The notes below the pieces were generated by a model. The model saw only the letters and a program-made list of their open reading frames with translations. It ran no database searches and was not told where the DNA came from. 64,000 nucleotides of DNA, from contig NZ_JAQGNT010000013.1 of the NCBI RefSeq assembly GCF_028291725.1, positions 1 to 64,000 on the forward strand. The letters are read 5' to 3'. How positions within the stretch are numbered: position 1 is the stretch's first letter; every line of letters starts with the position of its first letter. The position numbers and the translations under genes were made by a program. Positions 8,417 to 40,144 of this stretch are shown piece after piece. Source of the stretch: Hydrocarboniphaga sp. (GTDB lineage: Bacteria; Pseudomonadota; Gammaproteobacteria; Nevskiales; Nevskiaceae).

Positions 8417-9196
8417 ATGGTTCGCAGCACCGCGTACATCGCATCCGGCAAAGAGCGCGAGATTTTTGCAGCGGCGTCGCGCAATGGTCTGCCGGTGTTG
8501 CTGAAAGGCCCGACCGGCTGCGGCAAGACGCGCTTCGTGCAGGCGATGGCCGAAGCGCTCGGCCGCCCGCTGATCACCGTCGCCTGTCACGAGGACCTGA
8601 CCGCGGGCGATCTGGTCGGCCGCTTCCTGCTGCGCGGCGGCGAGACGGTCTGGGAAGACGGGCCCTTGACCCGGGCGGTGCGCGACGGCGCGATCTGCTA
8701 TCTCGACGAGGTCGTCGAAGCCCGCGCCGATACCACGGTGGTGATTCATCCGCTGGCCGATCATCGCCGCGAACTCAACGTCGAGCGTCTCGGCGTCAAG
8801 CTGATCGCGCCGCCGGAATTCATGCTGGTGATGTCCTACAACCCGGGCTATCAGAGCGTGCTCAAGGATCTGAAGCCGTCGACGCGCCAGCGCATGGTGT
8901 CGATCGAGCTGAGGTTCCCGAGCCCGGAAATCGAAGAGCGCATCCTGGTACAGGAGACCGGCATCGACATCGACAACGCGCGCCGCCTGGTGCGCCTGGG
9001 CCAGGCGATACGCCAGCTTCAGCATGAAGGATTGCCGGAGGCTGCGTCGACGCGCACGCTGGTATCGACCGCGCTGCTGATCAAGGACGGCGTCGCGCCG
9101 CAGGACGCCGCGGAAGCGGCGATCACCGGGCCGCTGACCGACGATCCGGTCGCCGCGAAACAACTGCTCGAGATGATGCGGATCTACATCGCCTGA
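8417..9196 (+). CDS. norQ-like: NorQ/CbbQ-type AAA+ ATPase
   Basis: 259 aa MoxR-group AAA+ protein. Walker A is GPTGCGKT (residues 31-38), Walker B is ICYLDEV near residue 95, and sensor/arginine positions fall in LVMSYNPGYQ and STRQRMVS. The C-terminal part matches NorQ/CbbQ/NirQ proteins, which form rings with a VWA partner (NorD, CbbO) to remodel or load metal into client enzymes. A VWA protein follows after 20 bp, so the pair is complete. No norCB or RuBisCO genes are in the window, so the client is unknown. Its start lies 90 bp after the FadL stop and AAGGAG is the ribosome site. Confidence 0.92.
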   Translation: MVRSTAYIASGKEREIFAAASRNGLPVLLKGPTGCGKTRFVQAMAEALGRPLITVACHEDLTAGDLVGRFLLRGGETVWEDGPLTRAVRDGAICYLDEVVEARADTTVVIHPLADHRRELNVERLGVKLIAPPEFMLVMSYNPGYQSVLKDLKPSTRQRMVSIELRFPSPEIEERILVQETGIDIDNARRLVRLGQAIRQLQHEGLPEAASTRTLVSTALLIKDGVAPQDAAEAAITGPLTDDPVAAKQLLEMMRIYIA

Positions 9197-9216
9197 AGGG
9201 GCCTGAAGACCTGCCG

Positions 9217-10965
9217 ATGATAGACGCCAGCCGCTATCTTTTTCTCGCTTGTGCGGTCGCCGGCCGCCGTGTCGCCGTGCACGTTTCCAGCGGCAGCGAG
9301 ACGCTGGCCAGCAGCGACGGCCAGGCGATCCTGTTGCCGTCGACGGTGCTGCAGGACGACGCGGGCGACGAGCAGCGGACATGGAAGCAGGTGGTCGCGC
9401 AGGCCGCGCTGATCGGCGCCGGATCGCTGCAGCTGCAGCTGCTGCGCAGGCTGGTGGGCCGTCCGGATGCGGCCAGGCGCTACGCCTGTCTCGAAGTGCT
9501 GCGTGCATCGCGCCTGCTGGCCGCGAGAATGCCGACTGCGTTTCTCGATCTGCCCGAACTGCGTCACGAACACGCGCCGCCGCAGAACGCCGCCGATTCG
9601 CTGTCGTGGGCGCTGAGCCGCCGCCCTGTGCCGGAATCGCCCGCGTATTTCGGCACGGTGCGTCCACTGATGGCGCTGCGCAAGGCGATCAGCGAGGAAG
9701 GCTGGTCGGCGCTGACGCAGCAGCAGGCGCGAGGCGAGTTCCAGCACAAGCAGCCCCAGCGGCAGTTCGACGACGACGACGCCACCGAGGAAAGCGCGCT
9801 GCTGCGCCTGTTCCAAAACCCGTTCGCGGCCGGCAATGCGATGGCCGAGCTGTTGAACAAGATCCTCGGTGCCGGTACTTCCAAGGGTGGTCGCGAAAAG
9901 AAGGCCGGCGAAGGCGCCGGTGCGGAATTGCCGGTGGGCTCGATCGAGCGCGCACTGCGGCGCGGCGTGCACGCGGTGCTGGCCAGGCTCCCATTCGAAG
10001 TGCCGGACATCGATGCGCGCGGCGAATCCGCCGGCCTGCGATATCCGGAATGGGACATCCATCAGAAAAAATACCGGCCGGACTGGGCGATGGTCGAAGA
10101 GGTTGAGGCCTGGCGCCCCGAGGGCGCGCGCGATCTCGGCGAGGTGCTCAAGCCGGCCGGCCACGAGCTCAAACGTCAGCTCGGCAGCCTCGGCCTGGAT
10201 CACCAGATGCATCGCCGCCAGCAGGACGGCGCCGAACTCGACGTCGGCCGCCTGCTCGATGCCGCGATCGATCTCGCGACCGGGCATTCACCGCCATCGC
10301 TGGACGTCTATCGCGCCAGCCGCCGCACGCGCCGCGATCTGGCGATCGTCGTCGGCCTGGACATTTCCGGTTCCACCGGCGAGCGCAGCGGCGCAGGCGT
10401 ATCGGTATTCGATCGGCAGCTGCAGCTCGCGTATCGGCTGGGCCGCACGCTCAACGATCTGGGCGATACCGTGGCGATGTTCGGCTTCCATTCCTGGGGG
10501 CGCAATCTGGTGCGCTCGGTGCGGCTGAAGGGGCCGGAAGAGCGCTGGAGCGCGTGCGTCGCAGAACGCTTCGCGCAGCTCGAACCGGTGGGCTATACGC
10601 GCACCGGCGCCGCGATCCGTCACGGTGCGCGCATGCTGCGGACCGACATGCGCCTGCCGAATCGCCTGCTGATCCTGATCACCGACGGCATCGCCTATGA
10701 CCAGGACTACGAAACGGCCTATGCCCAAGGCGACGCACGCAAGGCGCTGGAAGAAGCACGCGCCGCCGGTACCGCCTGCGTCTGCATCTGCGTTGGTGGC
10801 AGCAGTGACGCGGACCAGCTGCGCGCGGTATTCGGCGCGGCCAATCTGCTGATCGTCGACGAGCCGCAACAGGTCACGACGAGCATCCGCCGCGTCTGCC
10901 GCCAGGCGCTGGGCGCGGTTTCGCAACGCCGTCTCCAATCCAGCACAGCCCGAGCATCCCGATGA
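9217..10965 (+). CDS. norD-like: NorD/CbbO-type von Willebrand factor A protein
   Basis: 582 aa. A long N-terminal helical region leads to a C-terminal VWA domain whose metal-ion-dependent adhesion site starts at about residue 382 (LDISGSTGE) and includes ILITDGIAYDQDY. NorD and CbbO proteins pair with NorQ/CbbQ ATPases and contact the client through the metal site. Its place directly after the NorQ-like gene supports the pairing. Its stop overlaps (ATGA) the start of a ruined polytopic membrane gene, so an ancestral NorQ-NorD-membrane protein operon is likely. Nitric oxide reductase activation is the textbook role, but no reductase is present here. Confidence 0.9.
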   Translation: MIDASRYLFLACAVAGRRVAVHVSSGSETLASSDGQAILLPSTVLQDDAGDEQRTWKQVVAQAALIGAGSLQLQLLRRLVGRPDAARRYACLEVLRASRLLAARMPTAFLDLPELRHEHAPPQNAADSLSWALSRRPVPESPAYFGTVRPLMALRKAISEEGWSALTQQQARGEFQHKQPQRQFDDDDATEESALLRLFQNPFAAGNAMAELLNKILGAGTSKGGREKKAGEGAGAELPVGSIERALRRGVHAVLARLPFEVPDIDARGESAGLRYPEWDIHQKKYRPDWAMVEEVEAWRPEGARDLGEVLKPAGHELKRQLGSLGLDHQMHRRQQDGAELDVGRLLDAAIDLATGHSPPSLDVYRASRRTRRDLAIVVGLDISGSTGERSGAGVSVFDRQLQLAYRLGRTLNDLGDTVAMFGFHSWGRNLVRSVRLKGPEERWSACVAERFAQLEPVGYTRTGAAIRHGARMLRTDMRLPNRLLILITDGIAYDQDYETAYAQGDARKALEEARAAGTACVCICVGGSSDADQLRAVFGAANLLIVDEPQQVTTSIRRVCRQALGAVSQRRLQSSTARASR

Positions 10966-11204
10966 ATACCCGAATTCAATTGCTGTGCGTATGGGCCGGC
11001 CCGACGTTCCTGGTGCTCTAGATGCTGGCGTTCTGGCAGCTCGCCGGTTATCTGCCGCCGCATCCGCCCAGCCTCGGCACCGCCGAAGTCGCCGCGTTCT
11101 ACAGCGAGCACGCCAACTCGATCCGAGCCGGCCAGTTGCTGAGCCTGATTTTCTCGACGCTGCTGATCAAGGGCGTCAGGCGACAGGCTTCCGGGGAAGC
11201 TTGA
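10962..11204 (+). pseudogene. Remnant of polytopic membrane protein (PPxxPS/GPFxWNG family)
   Basis: Reading from ATG 10962 gives MNTRIQLLCVWAGPTFLVL, then an in-frame TAG, then MLAFWQLAGYLPPHPPSLGTAEVAAFYSEH and IFSTLL joined directly to IKGVRRQASGEA. The intact paralogue at 17865-18563 starts MNTRLQLFCAWMGPVFLVLYGLAF, has IFSTLLFPW after the same segment, and ends SLMIKGIKQQAELPST. The remnant therefore has a nonsense codon near codon 20 and has lost about 150 central residues. The junction falls at a short shared CGCTGxTG stretch, suggesting deletion between microrepeats. Its start overlaps the NorD stop. Confidence 0.85.
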
Positions 11205-11301
11205 TCGAGACGTTCACGCCGCTGACGCGTTTGGACGGCCTTGCGCCGCAGGATTGTCGCTAGACTGGCGCGCATCGCCCAGCCCTGGAATCATTGACTC
11301 G

Positions 11302-12309
11302 ATGCTGCGCCCGGTCAGAATCCGACACTATCTTGCGGTGATGCAGGCCAAGGGCTTTGCCGCGGATCAGGTGCTGGCCGGCACCGGCATCGACAGTCGG
11401 CGCCTGCAGGACCCGAACTACCTGATCGACGCTCGCCAGTGCCGCAAGGTGATCGGCAACATGATCGAGCTGAGCGGCGATCCCGGCATCGGCTTCGAAA
11501 CCGGCCACAATGCCGAGCCCGCCGATCTGGGTATCGTCGGCTACGCGATCATGTCCTGCCGCACCATGCGCCAGACGCTGCAGCTGTGGCGCCAGTACAG
11601 CAGCTCGCTGGTCGGCATCATGAGCAAGCTCGAACTCGAGGAAGAAACCGACGACGGCCTGACGGTCAGCGTCGTCGAACCCACCGACATCGACGCCATC
11701 TATATTTTCTGCGTCGAAGAAATCCTGGTGATGATGTACAAGATCGGCGGCATCCTCGCCGGCGGCGAGCCGGTAGTGAGGCGCCTGGAATTCACCTATC
11801 CGGCGCCCGCACACCGCCGGCGCTACGACGAGCAGTTCGGCTGCCCGATCCGCTTCGGCGCCGAACGTTCCAGCGCGGTGGTCGCGCACCAGTGGCTGGA
11901 CGCGCCGCTGCGCACCACCGACGAGGAATTCAACAAGATCTGCCTGCAGCACTGCGGCCAGATCCTGCAGCAGATCGAAAGCAGTGGTCCGATCAGCGGC
12001 AGGCTGCGCGACATTTTCCTGCGCAGCCCACGTACCTTGCCGAAACTCGACGCCGCCGCGCATCAGTTCGGCATGAGTCCGCGATCGCTGCGCCGCCACC
12101 TCAGCGAGGAGGGCGCCAGCTACCAGAAGCTGGTCGACGAATTCCGCGCCGATCTCGCCTGCGAATATCTGCGCTCGACGCGGATGTCGACCAAGGAGGT
12201 CGCCTATCTGCTCGGCTTCAAGGATCACAGCGCCTTCAGGCGCTCGTTCAAGCTCTGGACCGGCAAAACCGCCCGGGAGTATCGCCAGCAGATCTTGCAG
12301 GTTGGTTGA
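11302..12309 (+). CDS. AraC family regulator (arabinose-binding-like N-domain)
   Basis: 335 aa. The N-terminal part (RIRHYLAVMQAKGF onwards, with a central CVEEILVMMYKIGG) belongs to the ligand-binding domain of the OruR/ArgR-like AraC group. The C-terminal helix-turn-helix is seen in PRSLRRHLSEEGASY and TRMSTKEVAYLLGFKDHSAF. ATG 11302 is chosen because the paralogue at 53585-54601 starts at the same residue (MFRPIKIRHY). A third copy survives only as an N-terminal scrap at 17651-17794. It ends 3 bp from the convergent NorF-like gene and may control the neighbouring membrane or receptor genes. Confidence 0.88.
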   Translation: MLRPVRIRHYLAVMQAKGFAADQVLAGTGIDSRRLQDPNYLIDARQCRKVIGNMIELSGDPGIGFETGHNAEPADLGIVGYAIMSCRTMRQTLQLWRQYSSSLVGIMSKLELEEETDDGLTVSVVEPTDIDAIYIFCVEEILVMMYKIGGILAGGEPVVRRLEFTYPAPAHRRRYDEQFGCPIRFGAERSSAVVAHQWLDAPLRTTDEEFNKICLQHCGQILQQIESSGPISGRLRDIFLRSPRTLPKLDAAAHQFGMSPRSLRRHLSEEGASYQKLVDEFRADLACEYLRSTRMSTKEVAYLLGFKDHSAFRRSFKLWTGKTAREYRQQILQVG

Positions 12310-12312
12310 TCT

Positions 12313-12582
12313 TTATTGCTTTGCCGTCCAGAACAGCGTGACCAGCGTCGTGCAGACGATCACTGTCCAGACTTCGGCGACGACACGCATGAAACGCGGG
12401 GCGTAGCGAATCTCCATTAACTCGAGAATCACGAAGCGCAGCTTGATGAATGCGACGACGATGATCGCCACTCCGGCGTGCCGGGCTTCGCCGGAGCCAT
12501 GGCCCATTTCCCAGGACAGCGCGGTCGCCGCCACGAGCAGGAACCACACCAGCGTGATGCGGTTGAACAGAAAGAATCGCAT
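12313..12582 (-). CDS. norF-like: NorF-like / prokaryotic cytochrome oxidase subunit IV-like membrane protein
   Basis: 89 aa with three predicted membrane helices (about 9-27, 33-52, 67-86). It belongs to the small COX4-type family that includes NorF and subunit IV of caa3/quinol oxidases. Its closest relative here is the 95-aa protein at 19799-20086, with which it shares HAGVAI, a K-(A/L)-R-(F/L)-(V/I)-I stretch and a ME(I/V)R segment. It follows the broken NorE copy by 6 bp, so its operon is partly dead, but its own frame is open. Function without a complete NorE neighbour is doubtful. Confidence 0.75.
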   Translation of the reverse strand: MRFFLFNRITLVWFLLVAATALSWEMGHGSGEARHAGVAIIVVAFIKLRFVILELMEIRYAPRFMRVVAEVWTVIVCTTLVTLFWTAKQ

Positions 12583-12588
12583 GCCCGT

Positions 12589-12957
12589 CTATCGGAGCAG
12601 ATAGAGCAGCGCGAACAGCACGATCCACAGCAGATCGACCACGTGCCAGAAACTGGCGGCGCTTTCCAGGTTGCGGAGCTTGTGCTCGTGCTACGCGTCG
12701 GCCCAGGTATGGCGCGCCATGAATGCGAGCACGCCCATGCCGATCAGCACGTGCACGAAGTGGATGCCAGTGAACACGAAGTAGTACGTGTAAAAATCGT
12801 TGCTCGTCACGGTGATGCCGGCGGCGAATTTCTCGCAGTACTCGATGATTTTCAGGATGGCGAAGCCCAGGCCGCAGACGAACGCCAGCATCAGCAGCAT
12901 CGGCGTCGTTCTACCGCGTTGCCTGCGCGCCGCGTGCACCGCCATCGCGACGAACTC
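12589..12957 (-). pseudogene. Decayed NorE-like (heme-copper oxidase subunit III family) gene
   Basis: The frame begins without a start codon near 12957 (EFVAMAVHAARRQR), continues through VCGLGFAILKIIEYCEKF and VFTGIHFVHVLIGMGVLAFMARHTWADA, meets TAG at 12691-12693, and resumes as HEHKLRNLESAASFWHVVDLLWIVLFALLYLLR before the true stop at 12589. The intact paralogue at 20094-20687 shows the same order (AARQRR, VCGIGFAVVKFFEYHEKI, LTGLHFAHVSIGLVLLGF, YWHMVDVLWIVLFPLIYLLK). About 80 N-terminal residues are missing and one nonsense codon is present. The loss abuts the stop of the upstream polytopic gene. Confidence 0.9.
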
Positions 12958-12965
12958 ACAGCCTC

Positions 12966-13721
12966 TCAGGCCGGCAGCGCGGCCGGCCTGCCGCTGTGCT
13001 GCGTAGCCAGCGACAGCCGGCGCTCTTCGGCGCTGATCGTCCGCAAGGTCAGCACGGTCATCACCACCATCCAGCCGAAGAACACGAAGAATGCGAACCA
13101 GAACGAGATGAGCCCGTTATAGGCGAACGGCCCGGTCTTGAAGAACACGATCAGGCCGGCCGGGAAGATCAGCAGTGCACACCACAGGTTGAAGAAGGCG
13201 GCCCAGCGCGGGAACACGGTCGGCAGGTTGTGATCGTTGAAGATCGCGACAGCGATGATCACCATCCACAGCGCGAACGGCGGCCAGGTGAACAGGAAAT
13301 CGAACCACACCCAGTCGTTCATGATCTGGATCGTGGCCGGGTCGAGCGACTCGGCCCTGAAGGCGATCACCGCCCAGGTCATCGGGATCAGGATGAAGAA
13401 CACGTAGCCGCCGCCGATGTTGGCGATCGATGCGTAGGTGAGCACCGGCATGCCGCGCTCCATCTTGCGGATGAACATCGTGATCGCGATCGCCCAGGTG
13501 TTCCAGAACGACCAGCAGATGCACTGGATCAGCGTGCCCAGGCGAATGCCGTCCTGGCGCTCGATGAAGATCTGCGCGAGTTCCTTGGCGCTGAGCGACG
13601 GTGCGGGTGGCGGGATGAAACCCATCAGCCAGCCCTGAGCCACCAGCATCGCGACGATCAGCACGACGCCGGACCATACGAGCGCACGCATCACGCTCGT
13701 ATTCATTTCTGTCTGTTTCAT
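12966..13721 (-). CDS. Polytopic membrane protein, PPxxPS/GPFxWNG family (copy A)
   Basis: 251 aa, around six predicted membrane helices. Family marks are FIPPPAPSLS after the first helix, a GIRLG turn, VFPRW before the last hydrophobic block, and FFKTGPFAYNG near the C-terminus. I recognise no enzymatic motif and no conserved histidines, and do not know a named function. It was followed by NorE and NorF genes, as in the intact locus at 19.8-21.4 kb; the NorE here is broken. Divergent from the TBDT at 14150 across 428 bp. Ribosome site AGGAGCAACC precedes the ATG. Confidence 0.8.
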   Translation of the reverse strand: MKQTEMNTSVMRALVWSGVVLIVAMLVAQGWLMGFIPPPAPSLSAKELAQIFIERQDGIRLGTLIQCICWSFWNTWAIAITMFIRKMERGMPVLTYASIANIGGGYVFFILIPMTWAVIAFRAESLDPATIQIMNDWVWFDFLFTWPPFALWMVIIAVAIFNDHNLPTVFPRWAAFFNLWCALLIFPAGLIVFFKTGPFAYNGLISFWFAFFVFFGWMVVMTVLTLRTISAEERRLSLATQHSGRPAALPA

Positions 13722-14149
13722 GGTTGCTCCTGTAGTACCAAAACCAATGCAAGCTCAGGCGGAGTTTGCGTATCGACGGCCGGCGCCGGCGGTGACATGG
13801 GGGAAATAGCGGGACTTCGTGGCAGCGCGCCCACGGCTTTTTCTGCGCAGCGAGGCGCGCTCTCCGAATGTAGGGGCGATGCGTGGCTCATTACGCTGCA
13901 GTCGTGGCGGCGCCGCAAGATGGCTGAGCGGCCAAAGTGTTGCGTATGCGGCCACGCGAACTGATGTCGTGGCGCGCATTTAAAACTGCAGTTCGATATC
14001 TGGCCTGATCCGCAACAGATTGGCCCGCCGCGCGTCTGTTCTTGGCGCCGCGAATATTGCGTAATGCTCACCGAAAGGATTTCAGGGCGGTCGGTCGGCA
14101 CGCTCGTATCAGCCACTATAAGAAAGACTCCGCACGGAGAAGGGGACTC
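13722..14149. other. Gene-free divergent region
   Basis: 428 bp between the minus-strand membrane gene and the TBDT at 14150. No coding frame with family similarity is seen on either strand. GGAGAAGGGG before 14150 is the TBDT ribosome site. A GC palindrome (GCCGGCGCCGGC near 13780) is of doubtful meaning at this base composition. Promoters for both flanking genes should lie here, but I cannot place them. Confidence 0.5.
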
Positions 14150-16567
14150 ATGTCGGTTGCAAGAATGATCAGCAGTGCGCTGATCTTGTCGGCGGTCGTC
14201 ACGCCGCTGGCCGCGCAGGAAAACCAGGCCGACGATGCGGATCGCGCCGCTCCGGATACACTGGCGACGATCACGCTTCCGCCGTCGGCGGAAAGCGATG
14301 CGCCGACAGGTGACGACAAGCCGAGAGGCGCAAATCGTCTGATCGAAGAGATCGTCGTCACCGCGCAGAAACGCGAGGAGGCGATTCAGGACGTGCCGAT
14401 TTCGGTCGCGGCTTTCTCCGAGCAGCAGTTGCAGGCGATGGGCGTCGAAAGCACCAAGGACCTGGGCCGCGTCACGCCCGGCCTGCAATTCACCGAGACC
14501 GCGGGTTTCACGCTGATCTATCTGCGCGGTGTCGGCACGGATTCGTTCCTGCCGTATGCCGATCCCAGCGTCGCCACCTATGTCGACGGCCTGTACATTC
14601 CGGCGCAGCAGGGCCTGGTCAATTCCTTCGGCGGCATCCAGCGCGTGGAAGTGCTGAAAGGCCCGCAGGGCACCTTGTTCGGCCGCAACTCCACCGGCGG
14701 CGCGATCAATGTCATCACCAAGTCGCCGGATCAGACCACCGAGATCTCGGCGCAGGCCGAGCTTGGCAATTTCGACGACAAGAAAGTCCAGGTCTATGCC
14801 AGCACGCCGATTAGCGACACGCTCGCCGCGAGCGTCTCGGCGATCTACAACCATACCGATCCGTACTACAAGCTCATCACCGACGATCTCGGATCGCTGG
14901 AATCCGCCCCTGCCGATCGGCTTTACCCGGACGAAAGCTACGGCGCGCGGGTCAAGCTGCGCTGGTTCCCGATCGAGGAACTTGATCTGGGCCTGACGGC
15001 TTATCACATCAGGCAGGTCGGTACCGGAAGCACCATCGGTGCGCTGACCAAGCCCAGCGCGCTGGCGACCTTGCTCGGCATTCAAGCCGAACAGCAGGAT
15101 TACGAAATCCATCGCAACGAACCCACGAAGCTGGCGGTCAGCAATTCGGTGATCGCCGGCAATGCCACGTGGAATCTGCCGGCCTTCGATCTGAAACTGA
15201 TCACCGGCTACCAGGACATCGTCACCGAGGACGCGTACTACGACTTCGATAATTCGGCCAAGGATCTGGTCTCGTTCTTCACCAACAACGCCTACAACCG
15301 TGTGACCACGGCCGAATTCCAGATCGCGTCGAACGCGTCGAGCTGGATGTCGGATCGGCTGAAGTGGATCGGCGGCCTGTACTACCTGCATAGCCTCGGC
15401 GGCTACGATCCGATCACGCTGGAAATCGCCGGCAGCGGAGTCCCGCGAATCGGTGCGGGATTGCTGACGCCCGAGGTGCTGGATGCGGTCGAGCAATTTC
15501 TCCAGGGTATCCCCGGGCTGGGCTCGGCGACGCCGGGCGTGCAGGTCGATATCCACGGCGTGCTCAGAACCAACTCGTACTCCGCATTCGCGCAGAGCGA
15601 TTACGACTTCTGCGACTGGTTCAATCTGACGCTGGGCCTGCGCGGCCAGATCGAGGACCGCTTTCTGACGCGGCAGGACGTGTTGCTGGAATCGGGCAAC
15701 GGCAACAACGATCTGCCGCTGTTCCGGTACCACGAGCCCAAGATTACGCAGCACAATTTCACGCCCAAGGTGTCGCTGAACTTCAAGCCGGCCGACGACA
15801 TGCTGGTCTATCTGAGCTGGTCCAAGGGCTACAAGAGCGGCACCTATAACGGCATCAACATCTATACGCCGCCGAGCTACGTTCAGCCGGAGGTAGTCAA
15901 TGCCTACGAACTCGGGCTCAAGTCGGAATACTTCGACCACAAGCTGCGTTTCAACGCCGCGATTTTCCAGAACGACATCCGGCACCCGCAGGTCACTTAT
16001 GTGTCCCTGGTGAACGGCGGCGCGATCACGTTTGAAAACGCCGGCAGCGCCAGAATCCGCGGCGCCGAATTCGATACGCTGCTGGTGCCGCTGCCGGACG
16101 CCGATCCCGGCCTGGTGCTGACGCTGGGCGTGTCGTATCTCGACGCGGTGTTCACCGACTACCGCAACGGCAGCGGGTTCAACGAGCAGACCGGTCTGTT
16201 CTTCAGCAAGAGCGGCGATTTCACCGGCAACCGGATTCCGCGCACCGCGAAGCAGACCGGCAATTTTGCGGTGAACCAGACGCTGGAAGTCGGCCAGGGT
16301 TCGCTGGAGTTGTCGGCCGACGTCTACTACAACAGCGGCTTCTACTACAGCGCGCAGAATACCGACGTGGCGCGGCAGGGCTCCTACTATCTGCTCAACG
16401 CCCACGTCGGATATCTGTACGATCCGTGGAAGCTGCGCATTACCGCGTTCGGCCAGAACCTCAACGACAAGGCCTACAGCTTCTCCGGCTTTACCGCCGA
16501 CTTCGGCACCAATGTCACGCTGGCTCCGCCGAGAACCTTCGGCCTGCGTCTGAACTGGGATTTCTGA
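14150..16567 (+). CDS. TonB-dependent outer membrane receptor (TBDT 1)
   Basis: 805 aa. Signal peptide about residues 1-22 (ends TPLAAQ), a Pro/Ala/Asp-rich linker, TonB-box-like EEIVVTAQKREE, plug domain with VEVLKGPQGTLFGRNSTGGAINV, then a 22-strand-type barrel ending in LRLNWDF with C-terminal Phe. It imports large or scarce substrates using TonB and proton motive force; the ligand is unknown. An AveC-like membrane protein begins 6 bp downstream, so both are probably co-expressed. It shares the phrase VPLPDxDPGLV with the receptor at 56831, suggesting a closer paralogue pair. Start supported by GGAGAAGGGG. Confidence 0.95.
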   Translation: MSVARMISSALILSAVVTPLAAQENQADDADRAAPDTLATITLPPSAESDAPTGDDKPRGANRLIEEIVVTAQKREEAIQDVPISVAAFSEQQLQAMGVESTKDLGRVTPGLQFTETAGFTLIYLRGVGTDSFLPYADPSVATYVDGLYIPAQQGLVNSFGGIQRVEVLKGPQGTLFGRNSTGGAINVITKSPDQTTEISAQAELGNFDDKKVQVYASTPISDTLAASVSAIYNHTDPYYKLITDDLGSLESAPADRLYPDESYGARVKLRWFPIEELDLGLTAYHIRQVGTGSTIGALTKPSALATLLGIQAEQQDYEIHRNEPTKLAVSNSVIAGNATWNLPAFDLKLITGYQDIVTEDAYYDFDNSAKDLVSFFTNNAYNRVTTAEFQIASNASSWMSDRLKWIGGLYYLHSLGGYDPITLEIAGSGVPRIGAGLLTPEVLDAVEQFLQGIPGLGSATPGVQVDIHGVLRTNSYSAFAQSDYDFCDWFNLTLGLRGQIEDRFLTRQDVLLESGNGNNDLPLFRYHEPKITQHNFTPKVSLNFKPADDMLVYLSWSKGYKSGTYNGINIYTPPSYVQPEVVNAYELGLKSEYFDHKLRFNAAIFQNDIRHPQVTYVSLVNGGAITFENAGSARIRGAEFDTLLVPLPDADPGLVLTLGVSYLDAVFTDYRNGSGFNEQTGLFFSKSGDFTGNRIPRTAKQTGNFAVNQTLEVGQGSLELSADVYYNSGFYYSAQNTDVARQGSYYLLNAHVGYLYDPWKLRITAFGQNLNDKAYSFSGFTADFGTNVTLAPPRTFGLRLNWDF

Positions 16568-16573
16568 GCTGCC

Positions 16574-17626
16574 ATGTCGAGATCGTCTGCGATGCCTGCC
16601 GCTGTGGCCAGCGCCGAATCGATCATGCCGCGCCGCATCAGCCCGGTCGCGATCTGGGCGGGTACCGGCGCGGTATTCGCCGCTTTCGAGTGCTATGTCT
16701 GGGCGCGATGGATAGGCTCGGCCAACTTTGCTCCGCGGCCGGTCGACGTCGGCAGCGTGCCGGAGTTTACCCGGCAGGTGATCCATGTCACCCAGGTGAT
16801 CTCGCCGATCGTCTGCGTCTTCATCGTGCTGAAATTTTTGGTTGCGCCCTTGATCCGCGAGCGGCGGTTCACGCTCGACGGCATGCTCGTGGTGTCTTAT
16901 TTCACGCTGTGGTTTCAGGACCCGATGGGTAACCTGGCCAGCACTCAGCTCTACTACAGTTCGTACTGGGTCAACAGGGGATCATGGACATTGGGATCGC
17001 TGCCGGGCTGGATCAGCCCGGCCGGCAATCACTTGCCGGAGCCGATCCTGGTGATGGGCTTCGGTTACCTGTGGCTGGGATTTCTGGCGGGGATGAGCGC
17101 GTTCTGGTTGATGAGCCGCATCCGGCAGCGCTTCCCACGCGCCAGCGCGCCGGAGCTGATGCTCGCCGGCCTTGCCCTGTGCGTGGTGCTCGACGTGGCG
17201 GCCGAAGTGTCGCTGGCGGCGGCCGGCACCTTCGCGTGGCCCGGCGCAATCAAGGGCTTGAGCCTGTTCTATGGCAGGCCCTACCAGTTCCCGATGTACG
17301 AGGGCATTCTGTTCGGCGCGGTGATCGCATCCGGCGGCATGTTGCGCTTCTTTCGCGATGACAAGGGCCAGACGCTGGCCGAACGCGGGCTGGACCGGCT
17401 TTCGTATTCGCAGCCGGTGAAGACCGTGCTGCGCTTCTTCGCCGTCTATGGTTTCATGCACTTGTTCATGGCACTGTGTTACTCGATCCCGATGATCAGC
17501 TTCGGCATGCATTCCGATCCTTTCCTGCGCTATCCGAGCCATCTCGAAAATGGCATGTGCGTCGTCGGCCCGAATCGGGATCTATGCCCCGGGCCGGGCA
17601 TCGCGATGCCGCGACCGCCTTACTAG
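16574..17626 (+). CDS. AveC-like (spirocyclase family) membrane protein, copy 1
   Basis: 350 aa, about six or seven membrane helices. It shares with the copies at 26081 and 32814 the motifs WFQDPMGN, WTLGSLPGW, NHLPEP, PGAIKGLSLFYGRPYQFPMYEG, FFRDDKGQT and a C-terminal NGMC...LCPGPG with two conserved cysteines. By pattern it belongs to the AveC-like family, named after the avermectin spirocyclase/dehydratase; the family call is from memory of those motifs and the reaction here is unknown. It lies 6 bp after TBDT 1 and ends the plus-strand unit. Confidence 0.75.
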   Translation: MSRSSAMPAAVASAESIMPRRISPVAIWAGTGAVFAAFECYVWARWIGSANFAPRPVDVGSVPEFTRQVIHVTQVISPIVCVFIVLKFLVAPLIRERRFTLDGMLVVSYFTLWFQDPMGNLASTQLYYSSYWVNRGSWTLGSLPGWISPAGNHLPEPILVMGFGYLWLGFLAGMSAFWLMSRIRQRFPRASAPELMLAGLALCVVLDVAAEVSLAAAGTFAWPGAIKGLSLFYGRPYQFPMYEGILFGAVIASGGMLRFFRDDKGQTLAERGLDRLSYSQPVKTVLRFFAVYGFMHLFMALCYSIPMISFGMHSDPFLRYPSHLENGMCVVGPNRDLCPGPGIAMPRPPY

Positions 17627-17650
17627 CCGCGACGCAGGCTTACTGCAGGT

Positions 17651-17794
17651 TCATCCAGGCACCGCGTAGGCCGGAAGATAGGCCGGTTCGCTTCGTCGCT
17701 CGATGTCAACACCGGTCCCGGCAACCACGATGTCGGGGCCAAAGCCGCGTTCCTGCATCAGCGTAAGCCCGCCGCGGCGAATGTTGACGGGCAT
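17651..17794 (-). pseudogene. N-terminal scrap of an AraC-type regulator
   Basis: A 47-codon reading from ATG 17794 gives PVNIR...LMQERGFGPDIVVAGTGVD...P.YL before a TGA. The AraC protein at 11302 reads PVRIRHYLAVMQAKGF and then ADQVLAGTGID...P.YL at the same positions. Agreement over about 35 residues in the same spacing is strong for a paralogous 5' end. The remaining ~290 codons are gone. It sits between the AveC-like gene and the convergent membrane gene. Confidence 0.75.
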
Positions 17795-17864
17795 GAAACA
17801 TGCGCCCGGGCTTCGCGAATGTCGCCTAACGAAAATTCATTGACGTGATGGCAAGACGAGACGT

Positions 17865-18563
17865 TCAGGTTGACGGGAGTTCTGCCTGCTGCTTGATACC
17901 CTTGATCATCAGCGAGGCGTTGATGAACAGCCAGATGGAAAACATTGCGACTGGAATGTAGAACCCGATCAAGCCATTCCAGGCGAACGGGCCGCTCTTG
18001 AAAAAGCAGGCGAGTCCGCCACCCATGCCGGCGAAGCCGACCCAGATGTTGAAGTAGCAGGCCCAGCGTGGCCACACCGGATTCGGGCTCTTGTCCATGA
18101 ATCCCGCGATGGCCAGGCAGATCAATTGCATCGTGAAAGCCGGGAATACCATGACGAAGATCAGCCAGGCGCTCTCGTGCAACATGCGGACGATCGCGGG
18201 GTCCAGGTCCTGCCGCCATGCGGCGATAATCCACAGCATGCTGCAGATCTGAAAGAACACGATCAGCAAGGTGGCGCCGCCGAACTGCATCAGCGAGAGC
18301 ATCGGATAGCGCCCCTCGATGCGCGCCATCTGCACCGAGATGACCGCAAACCACGGGAACAGCAGCGTACTGAAGATGATGCCGAGTAGCTGCGCGATGC
18401 GGATGCGGTTGGTGTGCTCCGCGTAGAACATCGCCACGTCTACCGGGCTCCAGCTTGGCGGTTGCGGCGGGATGTACTTGCCGAGGGCCATGAAGGCCAG
18501 ACCATACAGAACCAGGAACACCGGCCCCATCCACGCGCAGAACAATTGCAATCTCGTGTTCAT
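17865..18563 (-). CDS. Polytopic membrane protein, PPxxPS/GPFxWNG family (copy B)
   Basis: 232 aa, about six predicted helices. Marks: MGPVFLVLYGLAF first helix, YIPPQPPSWS, a RIRIAQ turn, WPRWACYFN, and FFKSGPFAWNGLIGFYIP before the last helix, ending SLMIKGIKQQ. It is the closest relative of the pseudogene after NorD (10962-11204). It is the last gene of the minus-strand run MarR, copy C, NorE, NorF, DapB-fold dehydrogenase, copy B, starting 55 bp after the dehydrogenase stop. No catalytic motif recognised. Confidence 0.8.
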   Translation of the reverse strand: MNTRLQLFCAWMGPVFLVLYGLAFMALGKYIPPQPPSWSPVDVAMFYAEHTNRIRIAQLLGIIFSTLLFPWFAVISVQMARIEGRYPMLSLMQFGGATLLIVFFQICSMLWIIAAWRQDLDPAIVRMLHESAWLIFVMVFPAFTMQLICLAIAGFMDKSPNPVWPRWACYFNIWVGFAGMGGGLACFFKSGPFAWNGLIGFYIPVAMFSIWLFINASLMIKGIKQQAELPST

Positions 18564-18618
18564 CGACTTTTCCGTAGTTTCTCGATGTGACTGGGTCTCG
18601 ATGTGACTGGGATGCGTC

Positions 18619-19710
18619 TTACAGGTTGCGCAAATCCGGCAGCCAATGAATCGGTGTGCCCAAGGGCTTGAGGATGCCGGGCGGCGCCTTCATGACTTTC
18701 GGCACGGCTTTGAGCAGCGTCGCAACCACGGCGTGATAGCCCGACTCGGTGCGCGTGTCGCCCGGCACGATGAAACGCTCGCCGGTACTGAAGTCGGACT
18801 TGATGTCGATGACCGTGCGCACCGATGGCCGGCCTTCGATCGTCAGCACCCAGCCCTGCACTTTCTCGACACCCGGCGGCAGGCTCTGGTGCGTGATCGC
18901 CCAGTTGACCTCGACCGTCATGAACGGACGTTCGGCATCCTTGAGATAACCGCACATGCGCGTCGTGATGCAGCTGACAGTGCCTTTCTTGACGAACAGG
19001 CTGCCGTGCGAGAAGTCCTGAGCGGCGACCGGATACTCGTTTTCGACCGTGATGCGATCGTAGGTCACGCCCATAGTCTCGGCCCAGGCCGCGAGCCCCT
19101 GCTTGACGAAGTTGCCGGAGATCGCCAGCACCACCGGACTTTGCGCTGCGACTTCCGGCGACTCGCCGTAGCCACAGACCTTGAAGGTCTCGGGCTCCAG
19201 GAACGAGACGTCCCAGTTTTCCTGCATCTTGACGTGGCGTACGTCATTGCAGAGGCCGGTCAGTGCCAGCAGCAGGCGTTCGCCGACGAGGTCAGGATTG
19301 ACGCCGGTGGCGTGGAATACGCTGTTGCCCCGCTTGCACGCGGCCTCCACGCGCGCGACGTACTCCGGCGGCCGTACGACATGCATGTAGTGATAGGGCA
19401 GTGCGGTAACGAGGTTCTTGCCGGCCGCCAGCAGCTGTACGATCTCCTCGTCATTGTTGTAGGTGGCAAGGTCGCGCGCGGTATAGAGCACGACATCGCA
19501 GTCGATCGCGAGCATCTCTTCGACGTTCGACGACACCTTGACGCCGATCGGCGCGATGCCGATCAAGGCGCCGGCATCCATGCCGTGCTTGGCATCGCTG
19601 TAGGCGCGCACACCGACCAGCTCGAATTCCTTGAGCATCGAGATCTCGCGAATGCAGACCATGCCGAGGCCACCCGGGCCCCAGACGACGACTCTCATAG
19701 GGTTTTTCAT
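18619..19710 (-). CDS. DapB-fold NAD(P)-dependent dehydrogenase
   Basis: 363 aa. The N-terminal Rossmann segment VVVWGPGGLGMVCIREI is that of the dihydrodipicolinate reductase N-domain superfamily; length and the DVVLYTARD and NLVTALPYHYMHV stretches resemble the 2,4-diaminopentanoate dehydrogenase-like branch found in lipid and steroid clusters. The substrate is unknown and it is not a lysine gene by context. AGGAGG precedes the ATG by about 11 bp; an in-frame ATG four codons later is possible. It lies between NorF-like (88 bp) and polytopic copy B (55 bp) on the same strand, so it is probably part of that operon. Confidence 0.82.
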   Translation of the reverse strand: MKNPMRVVVWGPGGLGMVCIREISMLKEFELVGVRAYSDAKHGMDAGALIGIAPIGVKVSSNVEEMLAIDCDVVLYTARDLATYNNDEEIVQLLAAGKNLVTALPYHYMHVVRPPEYVARVEAACKRGNSVFHATGVNPDLVGERLLLALTGLCNDVRHVKMQENWDVSFLEPETFKVCGYGESPEVAAQSPVVLAISGNFVKQGLAAWAETMGVTYDRITVENEYPVAAQDFSHGSLFVKKGTVSCITTRMCGYLKDAERPFMTVEVNWAITHQSLPPGVEKVQGWVLTIEGRPSVRTVIDIKSDFSTGERFIVPGDTRTESGYHAVVATLLKAVPKVMKAPPGILKPLGTPIHWLPDLRNL

Positions 19711-19798
19711 GGCGGCAGATTTCCTCCTGTGGCGATTTACGAGCCCTTAGTCATCCGGCTGGAAGTTCCATGCTGTCCGAGCTTGCGAGCGCAGTGCT

Positions 19799-20086
19799 TC
19801 AGGCCGGCGGCAAGCCCATCCAGTAAAGCGAGATCAGCGAAACGCCCACCACCAGCACCCAGACATCGCAGACCAGGCGCAGCGGCCAGGGTGCATGCCG
19901 CACCTCCATGAAGTGGAAGATGATCAGCCGGGCCTTGATGCAGGCGGCGATCAGCAGGCCGATCGCGATGCCGGCGTGCGGCGTGCTGGAATGGATGCCG
20001 TGGTCGGAGCCGAACCACCAGGACAGGCCGGTCACCGTGGCCAGCAGCAGCCAGATCCAGGTCGCATGATGTCGAAGCAGGGTCAT
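19799..20086 (-). CDS. norF-like: NorF-like / COX4-type small membrane protein
   Basis: 95 aa, three helices (about 10-26, 38-58, 70-90). Contains HAGIAIGLLIAACIKARLIIFHFMEVR, the core of the COX4-type small subunit family that includes NorF. It starts 7 bp after the NorE-like stop. In denitrifiers NorE and NorF help nitric oxide reductase, and related proteins are subunits of heme-copper oxidases. Neither a NorB nor a subunit I gene is present here, so the partner is likely the adjacent polytopic protein or something encoded elsewhere. Paralogue of 12313-12582. Confidence 0.82.
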   Translation of the reverse strand: MTLLRHHATWIWLLLATVTGLSWWFGSDHGIHSSTPHAGIAIGLLIAACIKARLIIFHFMEVRHAPWPLRLVCDVWVLVVGVSLISLYWMGLPPA

Positions 20087-20093
20087 CGCGGGC

Positions 20094-20687
20094 TCACTTC
20101 AGCAGATAGATCAGCGGGAACAGCACGATCCACAGCACGTCGACCATATGCCAGTAGGTGGCGCCGCTCTCCAGCAGCATGATCTGCTTGGCCTCGGTCA
20201 GCGGCTTGCGCGACTTCGCCCACATGAAGCCCAGCAGCACCAGGCCGATCGACACATGCGCGAAGTGCAGGCCGGTGAGCATGTAGTAGTACGAATAGAA
20301 GCCGTTGGTGGTCAGCGTCAAGCCGGCGCTGATTTTCTCGTGGTATTCAAAGAACTTCACCACCGCGAAGCCGATGCCGCAGACGAACGCCGACGCGAAC
20401 AGTGTGGACGCAGCGCGCGTGCGCCGCTGCCGGGCCGCGTCGACGCCCATCACCACGAACCAGGAGCTGGCGAGCAGCAGCAGCGTGTTGATCGCGCCGA
20501 AGTTCTGGTTCAGCGTGGCCTGCGAACGCATGTACAGATCCACGTCCAGCGCGCGGTAATACAGGAAGGTGCCGAACATCAGCGCGAACACGCTCATGTC
20601 GCCGAGCACGAAAACCCAGATGCCGGTTTCGCCGGGCACATGGCCTTTCATCGTTTTGGGTAGCGGCATATCGACAGCCGAGTTCAT
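20094..20687 (-). CDS. norE-like: NorE-like protein (heme-copper oxidase subunit III family)
   Basis: 197 aa, five membrane helices, the NorE form of subunit III that lacks the first two helices. Visible marks: GETGIWVFVLGDMSVFALMFG, the buried FEYHEKI, TGLHFAHVSIGLVLLG and a C-terminal YWHMVDVLWIVLFPLIYLLK. The ATG overlaps the stop of polytopic copy C (ATGA, 20684-20687), so the two are translationally coupled. NorF follows after 7 bp. This intact trio is the reference for the ruined one at 12.3-13.7 kb. Its presence without norCB is the notable point. Confidence 0.9.
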   Translation of the reverse strand: MNSAVDMPLPKTMKGHVPGETGIWVFVLGDMSVFALMFGTFLYYRALDVDLYMRSQATLNQNFGAINTLLLLASSWFVVMGVDAARQRRTRAASTLFASAFVCGIGFAVVKFFEYHEKISAGLTLTTNGFYSYYYMLTGLHFAHVSIGLVLLGFMWAKSRKPLTEAKQIMLLESGATYWHMVDVLWIVLFPLIYLLK

Positions 20688-21391
20688 GCCGGCACCGCCG
20701 GCACAGCCAGTGATTGCCGGCGGAGTATCCGGTGCAGCACCGCAAACATCACGACGAACCAGGTGCCGAAGGACGCGAACGGGATCCACCAGGGAAAGAT
20801 TCCGTTCCATGCGAACGGGCCGGTCTTGAAGAACACCGCGACAGCGCCGGGCACGAACAGCAGCGCGATCCAGACGTTGAAATAGCCCGACCAACGCGGG
20901 AAAACCGGCGTTTCGGCCTTGTCGAGCAGAATCGCTGCGGCCAGCGCCAGGCACTGCACCGTGGCCAGCGTGAAGGGCACGATGATCATGATCCAGCCCA
21001 TGTCGTTCAACAACAGCGTCAGCTGCGGATCGCGGTCCGGGCGGAACGCGGTGATCTCCCAGATCAAGGTCGGCAGGATCAGCAGCACGATGCCGCCGCA
21101 GCCCGCGCCGAGCTGCGTGTAGGCCAGTGCCGGACTATTGCCGCGGATGCGCAGCATCAGCACCGTGATCAGCGCAACCCACGGCGCGATCAGCCCGGCG
21201 CCGCCCATTGCGATCGCCATGCCCAGCCGGATGCCGGTGGTGTGGCTCTGATAGTAGGCGGCGACATCGGCCGCGCCCAGCGAAGGCGCGATCGGCGGCA
21301 CGAATCCCGCGCAGCCCCAGAAGCCAATGCCGAACAGCAGCAGAAAAGCCGGCCCGCACCACAGGCACAGCCATTGTCCCCTCGTTCCCAT
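20684..21391 (-). CDS. Polytopic membrane protein, PPxxPS/GPFxWNG family (copy C)
   Basis: 235 aa, about six helices. Marks: CGPAFLLLFGIGFWG, FVPPIAPSLG, GIRLGMAIA, RPDRDPQLTLLLNDMGW, VFPRWSGYFNVW and FFKTGPFAWNG. Three consecutive ATGs follow GGGAG; the third (21391) has the best spacing, and 21397 or 21394 are alternatives. Its stop overlaps the NorE start. It is 135 bp downstream of the MarR gene on the same strand. The strict coupling to NorE argues that this family works with NorE/NorF in the inner membrane. Confidence 0.82.
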   Translation of the reverse strand: MGTRGQWLCLWCGPAFLLLFGIGFWGCAGFVPPIAPSLGAADVAAYYQSHTTGIRLGMAIAMGGAGLIAPWVALITVLMLRIRGNSPALAYTQLGAGCGGIVLLILPTLIWEITAFRPDRDPQLTLLLNDMGWIMIIVPFTLATVQCLALAAAILLDKAETPVFPRWSGYFNVWIALLFVPGAVAVFFKTGPFAWNGIFPWWIPFASFGTWFVVMFAVLHRILRRQSLAVPAVPA

Positions 21392-24703: not shown

Positions 24704-26055
24704 TGACTCCCGCCCGCGAACCTTTCAGCGTCGCCATCGTCGGTGCCGGCCTGACTGGCCTCACCGCCGCGTGGCGGCTGCAGAGCGCCGGTCTGCGCGT
24801 GAAAGTATTCGAGAAGGCCGACGTCGCAGGCGGCCGGACGATGTCGATCCGCAAGGACGGCTTCGTGTTCGACGTCGGCGCGATCACGATGCTGCCGACT
24901 TACGCAGTGACCTGCGCGCTGATAGCCGAGCTTGGCATCAGTGCCCATCTGCACAAAATGCAGCCGCTGATCGGTATCCCGCGCAACGGCCGTATTCATC
25001 GTTTGGACCTGAGCCGGCCGGTGCGCAGTCTGCTTGCTACGAAGCTGATTTCGTTCGGCGCCAAGCTGCGGCTGCTGAAGCTGCTGGTTCCGATGCTGCG
25101 CAGCTGGAACCGCTCCAACTACCAGTCGCTGTCGCCGCTGGCCGAGTGGGACGGCGAGACCATCGCCAGCTATGTGAAGCGCGAACTCGGCGACGAAATC
25201 AACGAGTACATCGCCGGCCCGATCATTCGCGGCAATACGCTGAATTCCACGTCGAACGCGCCGATCGGCGAACTGCTGTGGATGCTGCGGCAGTATGCGG
25301 CGCCCTATGTCTACGGCTTCGATCGAGGCATCAATTTCCTGGCCGAAACGCTGAGCACGCGGCTGCCGGTGGAGTATCGGATGCAGGTGCAGTCGGTCAG
25401 CAAGCAGCATGGGAAAGTGCGTGTGGCCGGGCAGGGTCCGCAGGGCGGCTTCAGCGAGAGCTTCGACGCCTGCATCATCGCGCTGCCGCCGCCGGCGCTG
25501 CTGGAACTGGCGCCGAATCTCGGTGACAAGCAGCGCCGCTTTCTGCACTCGGCCAAGCCGCTGCGCAGTGTTAACGTGCATCTGGGCTTGCGCCGTCCGC
25601 CGCCGATCAGCGAGACTTTCGTGCTGCCGCCCGAGAGCGAGCATCGCGATCTGACGACTATCGTCATGGATCATCTGAAAGCACCCGGCCGCGCGCCGGC
25701 CGGCAAGGCGGTGGTGTCGCTGTTCTTCCGCGAAGAATGGTCCGCAGCGAATTTCGAGCGGCCGGACCCGGAGATTCTGAACGAGGCCCTGCGCATGGCA
25801 CGTGGCTTCATCGGCGATGTCAGCGCAGATGTCGAGACCTACGTCGTGCAGCGCTGGCCGTACGCGATCATCAGGAGCGAGCGCGGCCTGTACCAGCGCA
25901 TCCGCGACTACGAATCAGAGATCGACGAGTCCGATTGCGTGCAGTTCGGCAGCGATTTTCTGTCGATGGGCATGGAGGCCGCGGTCAGTAGTGGCAAGCT
26001 GCTCGCGGAACGCATCCAGCGGCTAGGCGTGACGGCGGGCGCTGTAGACAAGTGA
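24703..26055 (+). CDS. FAD-dependent amine oxidase/phytoene-desaturase-like protein
   Basis: 450 aa. Dinucleotide-binding GAGLTGLTAAWRLQ (about residues 12-25) followed by FEKADVAGGRTMS, and a C-terminal substrate and FAD segment FLSMGMEAAVSSGKLLAERI. This is the protoporphyrinogen oxidase/CrtI/amine oxidase fold. The paralogue at 34200 shares the layout (GAGLSGLAAAYRLQ and MEAAVVWGEKAADR). It overlaps the TBDT 2 stop by one base and precedes an AveC-like gene by 25 bp. It probably oxidises or isomerises the hydrophobic compound handled by this unit; the reaction cannot be read from sequence. Confidence 0.88.
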   Translation: MTPAREPFSVAIVGAGLTGLTAAWRLQSAGLRVKVFEKADVAGGRTMSIRKDGFVFDVGAITMLPTYAVTCALIAELGISAHLHKMQPLIGIPRNGRIHRLDLSRPVRSLLATKLISFGAKLRLLKLLVPMLRSWNRSNYQSLSPLAEWDGETIASYVKRELGDEINEYIAGPIIRGNTLNSTSNAPIGELLWMLRQYAAPYVYGFDRGINFLAETLSTRLPVEYRMQVQSVSKQHGKVRVAGQGPQGGFSESFDACIIALPPPALLELAPNLGDKQRRFLHSAKPLRSVNVHLGLRRPPPISETFVLPPESEHRDLTTIVMDHLKAPGRAPAGKAVVSLFFREEWSAANFERPDPEILNEALRMARGFIGDVSADVETYVVQRWPYAIIRSERGLYQRIRDYESEIDESDCVQFGSDFLSMGMEAAVSSGKLLAERIQRLGVTAGAVDK

Positions 26056-37929: not shown

Positions 37930-37933
37930 TTGA

Positions 37934-38035: not shown

Positions 38036-38155
38036 AAAGTACACTCGCAGCGGTTAATGAGTCGACGCATACAATCGCGACTCGACCAGTGGTTCGGTAA
38101 CGAGGGCAAAACAGAGGGGCCTTGAAGGTCTCTGGGTGAGGCTGCGTTTCGACCC

Positions 38156-40104: not shown

Positions 40105-40144
40105 AGGTTCGAGATTTCAGCGTTGTTCTGTTTCGGAGGGCGCT

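Follow-up and report, generated by a model that had tools for sequence, protein, structure and literature searches.

The first 64,000 nucleotides of contig NZ_JAQGNT010000013.1 of Hydrocarboniphaga sp. (Nevskiaceae; assembly GCF_028291725.1), which were analysed as a whole and are called the window here, contain genes of four families known from operons of the c-type nitric oxide reductase (cNOR; NOR, nitric oxide reductase), i.e., NorQ, NorD, NorE, and NorF, together with several copies of a polytopic membrane protein family with the motifs PPxxPS and GPFxWNG. This family had been pointed out in a preliminary description of the region and is labelled c0 in the following. The genes concerned are:

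8417..9196, plus strand: intact NorQ-type MoxR AAA+ ATPase (AAA_5 and CbbQ_C) of a lineage without link to NorB (Pfam, phmmer, tree)
9217..10965, plus strand: intact NorD-type protein with C-terminal VWA domain (Pfam VWA, conservation of the metal-ion-dependent adhesion site, MIDAS)
10962..11204, plus strand: relic of a c0 gene, ATGA-coupled to NorD, middle part gone (sequence, profile match with one TAG, translation)
12313..12582, minus strand: NorF-type COX4_pro protein of the second trio, open frame (PF03626, 40.3 bits; cut-off 28.9)
12598..12945, minus strand: broken NorE-type COX3 gene of the second trio, N-terminus gone, TAG at 12691-12693 (PF00510, 44.9 bits with one TAG)
12966..13706, minus strand: c0 copy A of the second trio, open (profile match)
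17865..18563, minus strand: c0 copy B, intact (profile match)
19799..20086, minus strand: NorF-type COX4_pro protein of the intact trio, directly after NorE (PF03626, 49.6 bits; cut-off 28.9)
20094..20687, minus strand: NorE-type COX3 protein of the intact trio, ATGA overlap with c0 (PF00510, 48 bits, cut-off 23.8; sequence; comparison with NorE and oxidase proteins)
20684..21391, minus strand: c0 copy C of the intact trio (profile match; AlphaFold2 model)
37177..37929, plus strand: c0 copy D (profile match)
39364..40104, plus strand: c0 copy E (profile match)
41235..41399, plus strand: C-terminal fragment of a c0 gene (profile match)

The NorQ-type protein matches AAA_5 with 117.8 bits and CbbQ_C with 88.3 bits (cut-off 20.6), its best PDB match is the solved NorQ 9qhd (phmmer, E 1.8e-92), and Walker A (GPTGCGKT) and Walker B (D97-E98) are conserved, such that it possesses the domain features of a NorQ. 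The adjoining gene likewise exhibits those of a NorD: its VWA domain (PF00092) reaches 27.4 bits (cut-off 23.8), and of the MIDAS motif DxSxS, D382 and S386 are found in 14 of 14 and S384 in 13 of 14 family members. The NorD stop codon overlaps the ATG of the c0 relic in an ATGA at 10962-10965; after 19 codons the relic is interrupted by a TAG in frame (11019-11021), and its first third is joined directly to an end resembling the C-terminus of the family. Pfam, the sequence, and the profile match across the TAG thus bear out what had been described here, namely NorQ and NorD followed by an overlapping, ruined polytopic gene. A FadL gene is situated upstream of the window NorQ, and in another locus (L036) FadL lies two genes from NorQ.

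On the minus strand, the intact copy C is coupled by ATGA to NorE, which is followed by NorF (19799-21391); sequence and Pfam agree with the earlier account in this point as well. The second trio (12313-13706) had been regarded as decaying, which fits one gene of the three, because NorE alone is broken and c0 and NorF are open. The intact copy B, absent from the preliminary description, lies within the range covered by it, between an AveC-like gene and a gene for a DapB-like dehydrogenase, and two open copies and a fragment (37177-41399) come in addition. In the entire genome, the profile search yielded 15 c0 matches, including two fragments.

The absence of norB was claimed earlier from the window and also holds for the search now made through the whole genome: the subunit I family of the heme-copper oxidases (PF00115, COX1) has three matches, assigned by curated models to the CcoN of cbb3, the CtaD of aa3, and the CyoB of bo3 oxidase, and NorB was not found in this assembly (120 contigs, completeness 98.86%); a search aimed at NorC was not made. 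The window system differs from cNOR in this lack of NorB and also in its NorQ, which does not group with the NorB-linked NorQs, of which three were available.

Concerning other genomes, a set of 61 was searched, consisting of the own genome and 60 relatives picked by the search tool, and 15 of them carry c0. In 32 of the 54 full-length c0 genes, a COX4_pro gene stands on the same strand at a distance of no more than 2.5 kb, in 31 cases downstream, each place being taken once. This is far past chance, as about 0.12 adjacencies on either side would be expected from the COX4_pro numbers and the genome sizes (a mean-field value that assumes random placement). Seen from NorF, 28 of the 74 COX4_pro matches adjoin a c0 gene on the same strand. 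COX3 lies on the strand of c0 and at most 1 kb from it in 25 of 35 cases in the loci of relatives, in 5 of 13 in the own genome, in 6 of 6 on plasmids, in 10 of 60 in genome-contig loci, and in 5 of 25 in NorQ-anchored loci, whereas for none of the c0 genes counted, in any of these locus groups, does a COX1 or NorB profile (each built from two sequences) match that strand within 3 kb. For these counts, c0 matches below 120 bits and NorQ matches below 200 bits were dropped, and the genes were placed by profile envelopes; gene calling hid c0 in L049 and L053 and missed COX3 and COX4 in two plasmid loci. The group counts are not fully independent, because some loci overlap or repeat (L051/L061, L056/L125, L066/L131, L047/L122, L049/L223, L053/L202, among others).

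Eighteen plasmid records match c0, and the six examined (from Rhodococcus, Novosphingobium, Diaphorobacter, Sphingobium, Mycobacterium, and Pseudonocardia) all possess c0-NorE-NorF: an annotated COX3 follows c0 in each of them, and an annotated COX4 follows COX3 in five, that of Novosphingobium being found by profile. The Rhodococcus set is located about 4.5 kb, or five genes, downstream of an Mce operon. The co-occurrence of c0 with Nor accessory genes, which had been proposed for checking in other genomes, was therefore found, and the observation is real and broader than first described, since Nor helpers stand beside c0 also in distant soil bacteria and in mycobacteria.

The COX3 protein of the window is identical to the NorE of norCBQDEF operons at 36.1% (Thioclava, L226) and 33.0% (Roseibium, L227) of the positions, to cyoC-annotated proteins at 25.8-30.1% (best 60 of 595 records), and to the COX3 of an orphan COX3-COX4 pair in Azospirillum at 38.9%. 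By these identities it is of the NorE type and appears closer to the NorE proteins encoded in nor operons than to subunit III of oxidases, the difference being modest. The Azospirillum pair (L225:5914-6796, on a plasmid) is an orphan NorE-NorF with no NOR and no annotated c0, and follows genes for an acyl-CoA dehydrogenase, a dehydrogenase, and a CoA transferase.

The usual neighbour of NorQ and NorD belongs to another membrane protein family, AveC_like (PF17198), of which the window contains three members:

16574..17626, plus strand: AveC-like membrane protein (PF17198, 165.7 bits; cut-off 26.6)
26081..27154, plus strand: AveC-like membrane protein (PF17198, 169.1 bits; model with a predicted local distance difference test, pLDDT, of 84.5)
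32814..33983, minus strand: AveC-like membrane protein (PF17198, 144.3 bits)

NorQ-type genes occur in 11 of the 61 genomes, six of which also bear c0; of 23 c0-bearing genomes reached via the genome-contig loci, 14 have NorQ, with 35 matches in total. Thirty-three of these 35 loci were fetched (the other two repeat L145 and L149), and 32 with at least 200 bits were counted, L224 with 78 bits being excluded. Within 3 kb of NorQ, NorD is present in all 32, an AveC-like gene in 26, c0 in 8, COX3 in 2, and NorB in none. The NorQ of L145, whose repeat is among the unfetched loci, is linked to NorB, such that a NorB-linked NorQ exists in one c0-bearing genome. Fisher tests over the 61 genomes, which ignore genome relatedness, gave p values of 0.0026 for c0 with AveC, 0.019 for c0 with NorQ, and 0.0004 for AveC with NorQ.

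When same-strand runs with gaps of at most 250 bp are considered, the 46 NorQ genes have AveC in their run in 20 cases, c0 in five, and NorB in three. The five runs with c0 are that of the window with its relic, L202, L223, L218, and L222, a TetR-like gene intervening in the latter two. The order AveC-c0-NorD-NorQ is realized in a Mycobacterium metagenome-assembled genome (L202, the same place as L053) and in Pseudonocardia eucalypti (L223, the same place as L049), the genomes holding such runs being G069 and G070. In Mycobacterium triplex (L217), two c0 genes, COX3, COX4, a gene for a 241-aa protein of another membrane family, NorD, and NorQ follow each other on one strand; Pfam confirmed COX3, COX4_pro, and CbbQ_C there, and VWA remained at 23.2 bits, below its cut-off of 23.8. 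M. pinniadriaticum (L193) has AveC-c0-COX3 and, in divergent orientation to it, a NorD-NorQ pair. Seven mycobacterial NorD-NorQ-AveC loci (L194-L200) have NorQ and AveC about 1.1-1.2 kb apart; the interval contains a gene for a periplasmic-binding protein (Peripla_BP_6) in L195 and a gene with a similar start in L194.

When 46 NorQ proteins are arranged in a tree, that of the window falls into a group of 32 (support 99/93), of which 28 are AveC-linked and two are with neither partner, and the NorB-linked NorQs form a separate group (99/85) of three rows only. The sister of the window NorQ is that of L149 (76% identity, support 100/99), where NorQ, NorD, a gap of 254 bases, COX3, and COX4 lie on one strand, i.e., arranged as in the norQDEF part of true operons; the L149 locus is without norCB and has no match to NorB or c0. 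The NorQ of M. triplex belongs to a third lineage, not to the AveC-linked group. In all seven loci of this third group (L213, L215, L216, L217, L221, L146, and L148), members of an unrelated family of polytopic proteins, about 236 residues in length (e.g., L221:7063-7773), adjoin on one or both sides, four of the seven loci having supplied seeds of its profile, and NorQD with polytopic partners other than NorB is thus a recurrent arrangement. A protein of about 140 aa is also encoded in these loci. The conserved residues of the 236-residue family include several histidines in the five seeds; Pfam gave no match for the members scanned, and hhalign showed no relation to c0 or AveC.

Concerning c0 itself, no Pfam cut-off was reached by copy A, copy B, or a copy from L193, the three scanned, the one sub-threshold match being Phage_holin_3_6 for copy B (13.9 vs. 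28.4 bits); copies A, B, and C matched no NCBIfam model, and profiles of 3 and of 55 c0 sequences found no match among the PDB sequences. The AlphaFold2 model of copy C (55 sequences; pLDDT 95.7, predicted template modelling score 0.90) consists of about 6-7 long helices. A Foldseek search with this model gave nothing at E <= 0.001, and VIA-align placed Ste2 at the top (Z 10.4, root-mean-square deviation 5.0 over 199), followed by a designed helical barrel (9.6), rhodopsins (about 8), and oxidase subunit I (7.8 and 7.3), all of which lie within the background of helical bundles. Invariant in the 55 sequences are P165, R166, W167, and G197 (copy C numbering), and nearly invariant are P32, P33, P36, I54, R117, D130, W133, D157, G191, and P192. 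The lack of conserved histidines noticed earlier was confirmed, as the commonest histidine column of copy C is occupied by this residue in 22 of the 55 sequences. Since no histidine is conserved, a NorB-like role with heme or FeB is unlikely for c0, and a relationship to heme-copper subunit I was rejected for want of conserved histidine ligands for heme and CuB/FeB. A distant relationship to AveC, to COX3 or COX4, or to the membrane family c7 mentioned below was also rejected (hhalign probabilities all below 1%).

Three further genes of the window characterize the surroundings:

18619..19710, minus strand: DapB / 2,4-diaminopentanoate-dehydrogenase-like NAD(P) enzyme (PF19328 and PF01113, both over cut-off)
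24703..26055, plus strand: oxidoreductase of the flavin adenine dinucleotide (FAD) type, HpnE / protoporphyrinogen-oxidase-like, below the NCBIfam cut-offs
35592..37178, plus strand: FAD oxidoreductase of a CrtO-like cluster, adjoining c0 copy D (Amino_oxidase, 45.7 bits; clustering)

Around c0, genes for CrtO-like and HpnE-like FAD enzymes, short-chain dehydrogenases/reductases (SDRs), acyl-CoA dehydrogenases, AMP-dependent ligases, cytochromes P450, and Rieske oxygenases recur, and in Gram-negatives also TonB-receptor-like genes. The latter form a cluster (c8) of putative TonB receptors, one member in L073 being annotated as such; the enoyl-CoA hydratase and most of the TetR-like genes are presumably what their labels say. 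Within 300 bp and on the same strand, a TonB-receptor-like gene accompanies 3 of 13 c0 copies in the own genome and 5 of 35 in the relatives. In the window, six such genes of one cluster, with the same putative label, stand beside AveC, FAD enzyme, and c0 genes (14042-62909). A membrane family, c7 (L052:2101-2916; window:54757-55623), two members of which were scanned against Pfam with no match, recurs in c0 clusters and is a remote relative of AveC (hhalign 95%, E 4e-8). A link to mycofactocin, suggested by the taxonomic spread, was dropped, since the maturase had no over-cut-off match in the own genome. Mycobacterial genomes possess up to 16 AveC-like genes, and c0 is even expanded to 32-49 copies per genome in G065, G066, G069, and G079, the maximum of 49 matches being reached in the Mycolicibacterium genome G065; the places listed are gathered in islands that span a few hundred kb.

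The AveC-like proteins share four acidic residues, D209, E213, E245, and E273 (numbering of window:26081-27154), which are invariant in 17 sequences. The model of this protein bears some likeness to MvINS, the mycobacterial homologue of Insig (Foldseek E 0.78; VIA Z 6.4, deviation 3.9 over 135; next unrelated rows 3.8), a possible hint at a sterol- or lipid-binding fold that is too weak for use, and the AveC profile matched PDB sequences only with E >= 0.3.

The organization found here is most easily compared with that of the cNOR operon norCBQDEF (Thioclava L226, Roseibium L227), with which it shares the NorQ, NorD, NorE, and NorF families and, in L149, even the order NorQ-NorD-NorE-NorF. Despite this similarity, NorB is absent here, c0 and AveC-like membrane proteins are found instead, and the NorQ is of a separate lineage. 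According to the excerpts of PMC13036017 and PMC9976466 used here, NorQD makes cNOR accept FeB by means of ATP and of a VWA finger in the NorQ pore, and no function is assigned there to NorE and NorF. The AAA_5 and CbbQ_C ATPase with a partner carrying a C-terminal VWA is the same as in the NorQD of Paracoccus denitrificans treated in these excerpts, and the same working is expected, whereas the client would be one other than NorB. CbbQ/CbbO and RavA/ViaA (PMC9976466, in part) likewise pair a MoxR AAA+ protein with a VWA partner that acts on another enzyme; their clients are RuBisCO and fumarate reductase, whereas the presumed client here is a polytopic membrane protein. The AveC spirocyclase/dehydratase of avermectin biosynthesis (PMC13303154, in part) and the AveC-like neighbours in the window share PF17198, but the latter are linked to NorQD and lipid-type enzymes, and no polyketide synthase gene was noticed nearby. 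NorE (PF00510) and NorF (PF03626) share their families with COX3 and COX4 of heme-copper oxidases, from which they differ in that the c0 genes counted have no subunit I in their vicinity.

In the open-licence literature of PMC, no paper was found that names both AveC and NorQ, and none on an oxidase subunit together with nonylphenol and Sphingobium. The portions retrieved there on norEF, on NorE/NorF with subunit III, and on NorE-like proteins contained no recognizable NOR-free setting, and those on MoxR and VWA in mycobacteria nothing on AveC; in the respective excerpts, an AveC-family protein appears only as a taxonomic marker (PMC5819568), and a MoxR ATPase is described in a mycobacterial CO dehydrogenase cluster (PMC12657314). 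Judged by these searches, two uses of Nor accessory proteins without NOR, the set c0-NorE-NorF and the NorQD lineage linked to AveC, seem not to have been reported before.

The explanation which we favour, at roughly even odds (about 0.5), is that c0, NorE, and NorF constitute an uncharacterised membrane complex and that NorQD matures a membrane client, most likely an AveC-like protein, in lipid or terpenoid metabolism. The two are separable modules, so the four Nor accessory genes are not one fixed set. In the first, gene order and translational coupling are evident, and c0 with its approximately 6-7 helices would form an inner-membrane complex with NorE (COX3 family) and NorF (COX4 family) as partner subunits. 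In the second, NorQ and NorD would act as a remodelling chaperone of the MoxR AAA+/VWA kind, from a lineage that has departed from NOR, with the AveC-like protein encoded nearby as the most likely client and c0 in some operons. By analogy with its action on cNOR, NorQD would use ATP to remodel this client and perhaps load a metal at D209, E213, E245, and E273, a metal site at these carboxylates being a guess. Both modules lie among genes for CrtO/HpnE-like FAD enzymes, P450s, SDRs, and acyl-CoA dehydrogenases and ligases, and for transporters of the outer membrane (TonB receptors and FadL). These transporter and lipid-type enzyme families suggest a setting of catabolism or conversion of bulky hydrophobic compounds, with the substrate class taken from the neighbour families alone, and the modules most likely serve the transformation or breakdown of steroid- or terpenoid-like compounds.

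Several observations weigh against this explanation. In the window, the c0 gene next to NorQD is a relic, and about 5.6 kb separate NorD from the closest gene of the AveC-like family. No COX4_pro is nearby in 22 of the 54 c0 genes, and no NorQ match exists in 9 of the 15 c0-bearing genomes among the 61 and in 9 of the 23 mentioned above, such that NorQD is not required by every c0. The preliminary statement that the family travels with all four accessory genes stands for NorE and NorF, which accompany it without heme-copper subunit I in many genomes; for NorQ and NorD it is backed by two independent actinobacterial gene runs, but the four genes are separable. In the mycobacterial islands c0 is so dense that its presence a few kb from NorQ is weak evidence there and only tight gene runs count. 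Support for some of the branches that separate the NorQ groups is only moderate (86/92, 86/87), and the third group includes two rows labelled AveC. Of the four carboxylates, E213 and E273 are kept in 23 of 23 sequences of a larger AveC set, whereas D209 (21/23) and E245 (20/23) are not invariant.

The mere co-residence of the genes in lipid-metabolism islands, with NorQD serving AveC, NorEF serving c0, and the ATGA of the window being a chance product of rearrangement, could also account for the association of c0 with NorQD. It would agree with the dozens of c0 copies per genome in clustered places, with the involvement of a relic in the ATGA junction, and with the excess of AveC (20/46) over c0 (5/46) in NorQ runs, two of the five being interrupted by a TetR-like gene; we nevertheless regard it as improbable, as the order AveC-c0-NorD-NorQ in both a Mycobacterium and a Pseudonocardia is unlikely to have arisen by chance. 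The same tight runs, which tie c0 to a remodelling chaperone, speak against c0 being an inner-membrane permease or receptor for hydrophobic substrates delivered by TonB receptors, FadL, or Mce, stabilised by NorE and NorF and with NorQD acting on AveC only. The TonB-receptor-like genes adjoining some c0 copies, the Mce operon near the Rhodococcus set, FadL near NorQ in the window and in L036, and the large paralog numbers, which suit substrate-specific transport or recognition, are in line with such a role; c0 has no transporter match, though the fold search was uninformative, and we consider this role rather unlikely as well.

Far less probable are two explanations that keep c0 close to respiration. 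The preliminary description had proposed, as one of two possibilities, that the polytopic protein replaces NorB; c0 might then be a catalytic redox subunit for NO or O2 matured by NorQD. That cNOR accessory families accompany c0 in the window and in relatives would fit, but c0 has neither a conserved histidine nor a detectable similarity to solved proteins, the usual neighbour of NorQD is AveC-like and not c0, and the c0 neighbours are mostly lipid-type enzymes, with no denitrification gene recognised among those labelled or read; the proposal is thus not upheld. An equally faint chance is given to c0-NorE-NorF as assembly or tuning factors of ordinary oxidases: NorE and NorF are homologues of COX3 and COX4 and the genome has subunit I genes of cbb3, aa3, and bo3 oxidases, but no COX1 or NorB accompanies the c0 genes, and up to 49 paralogs per genome are ill-suited to a single assembly role.

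The favoured explanation, a c0-NorE-NorF complex and a NorQD with a membrane client of its own, can be extended to a bolder and doubtful proposal: c0, NorE, and NorF, together with an AveC-like protein matured by a NOR-free NorQD, might represent a new class of membrane enzyme complexes outside the heme-copper type, directed at bulky hydrophobic compounds and present in dozens of copies in some mycobacteria. If this were true, NorE and NorF would be general partners of membrane enzymes and not parts of NOR. A widespread NOR-free setting, in which Nor helpers are tightly coupled to a single unnamed membrane family, offers a direct route to the function of these helpers, and a NorQD with clients other than NOR would widen the range of proteins matured by MoxR/VWA chaperones.

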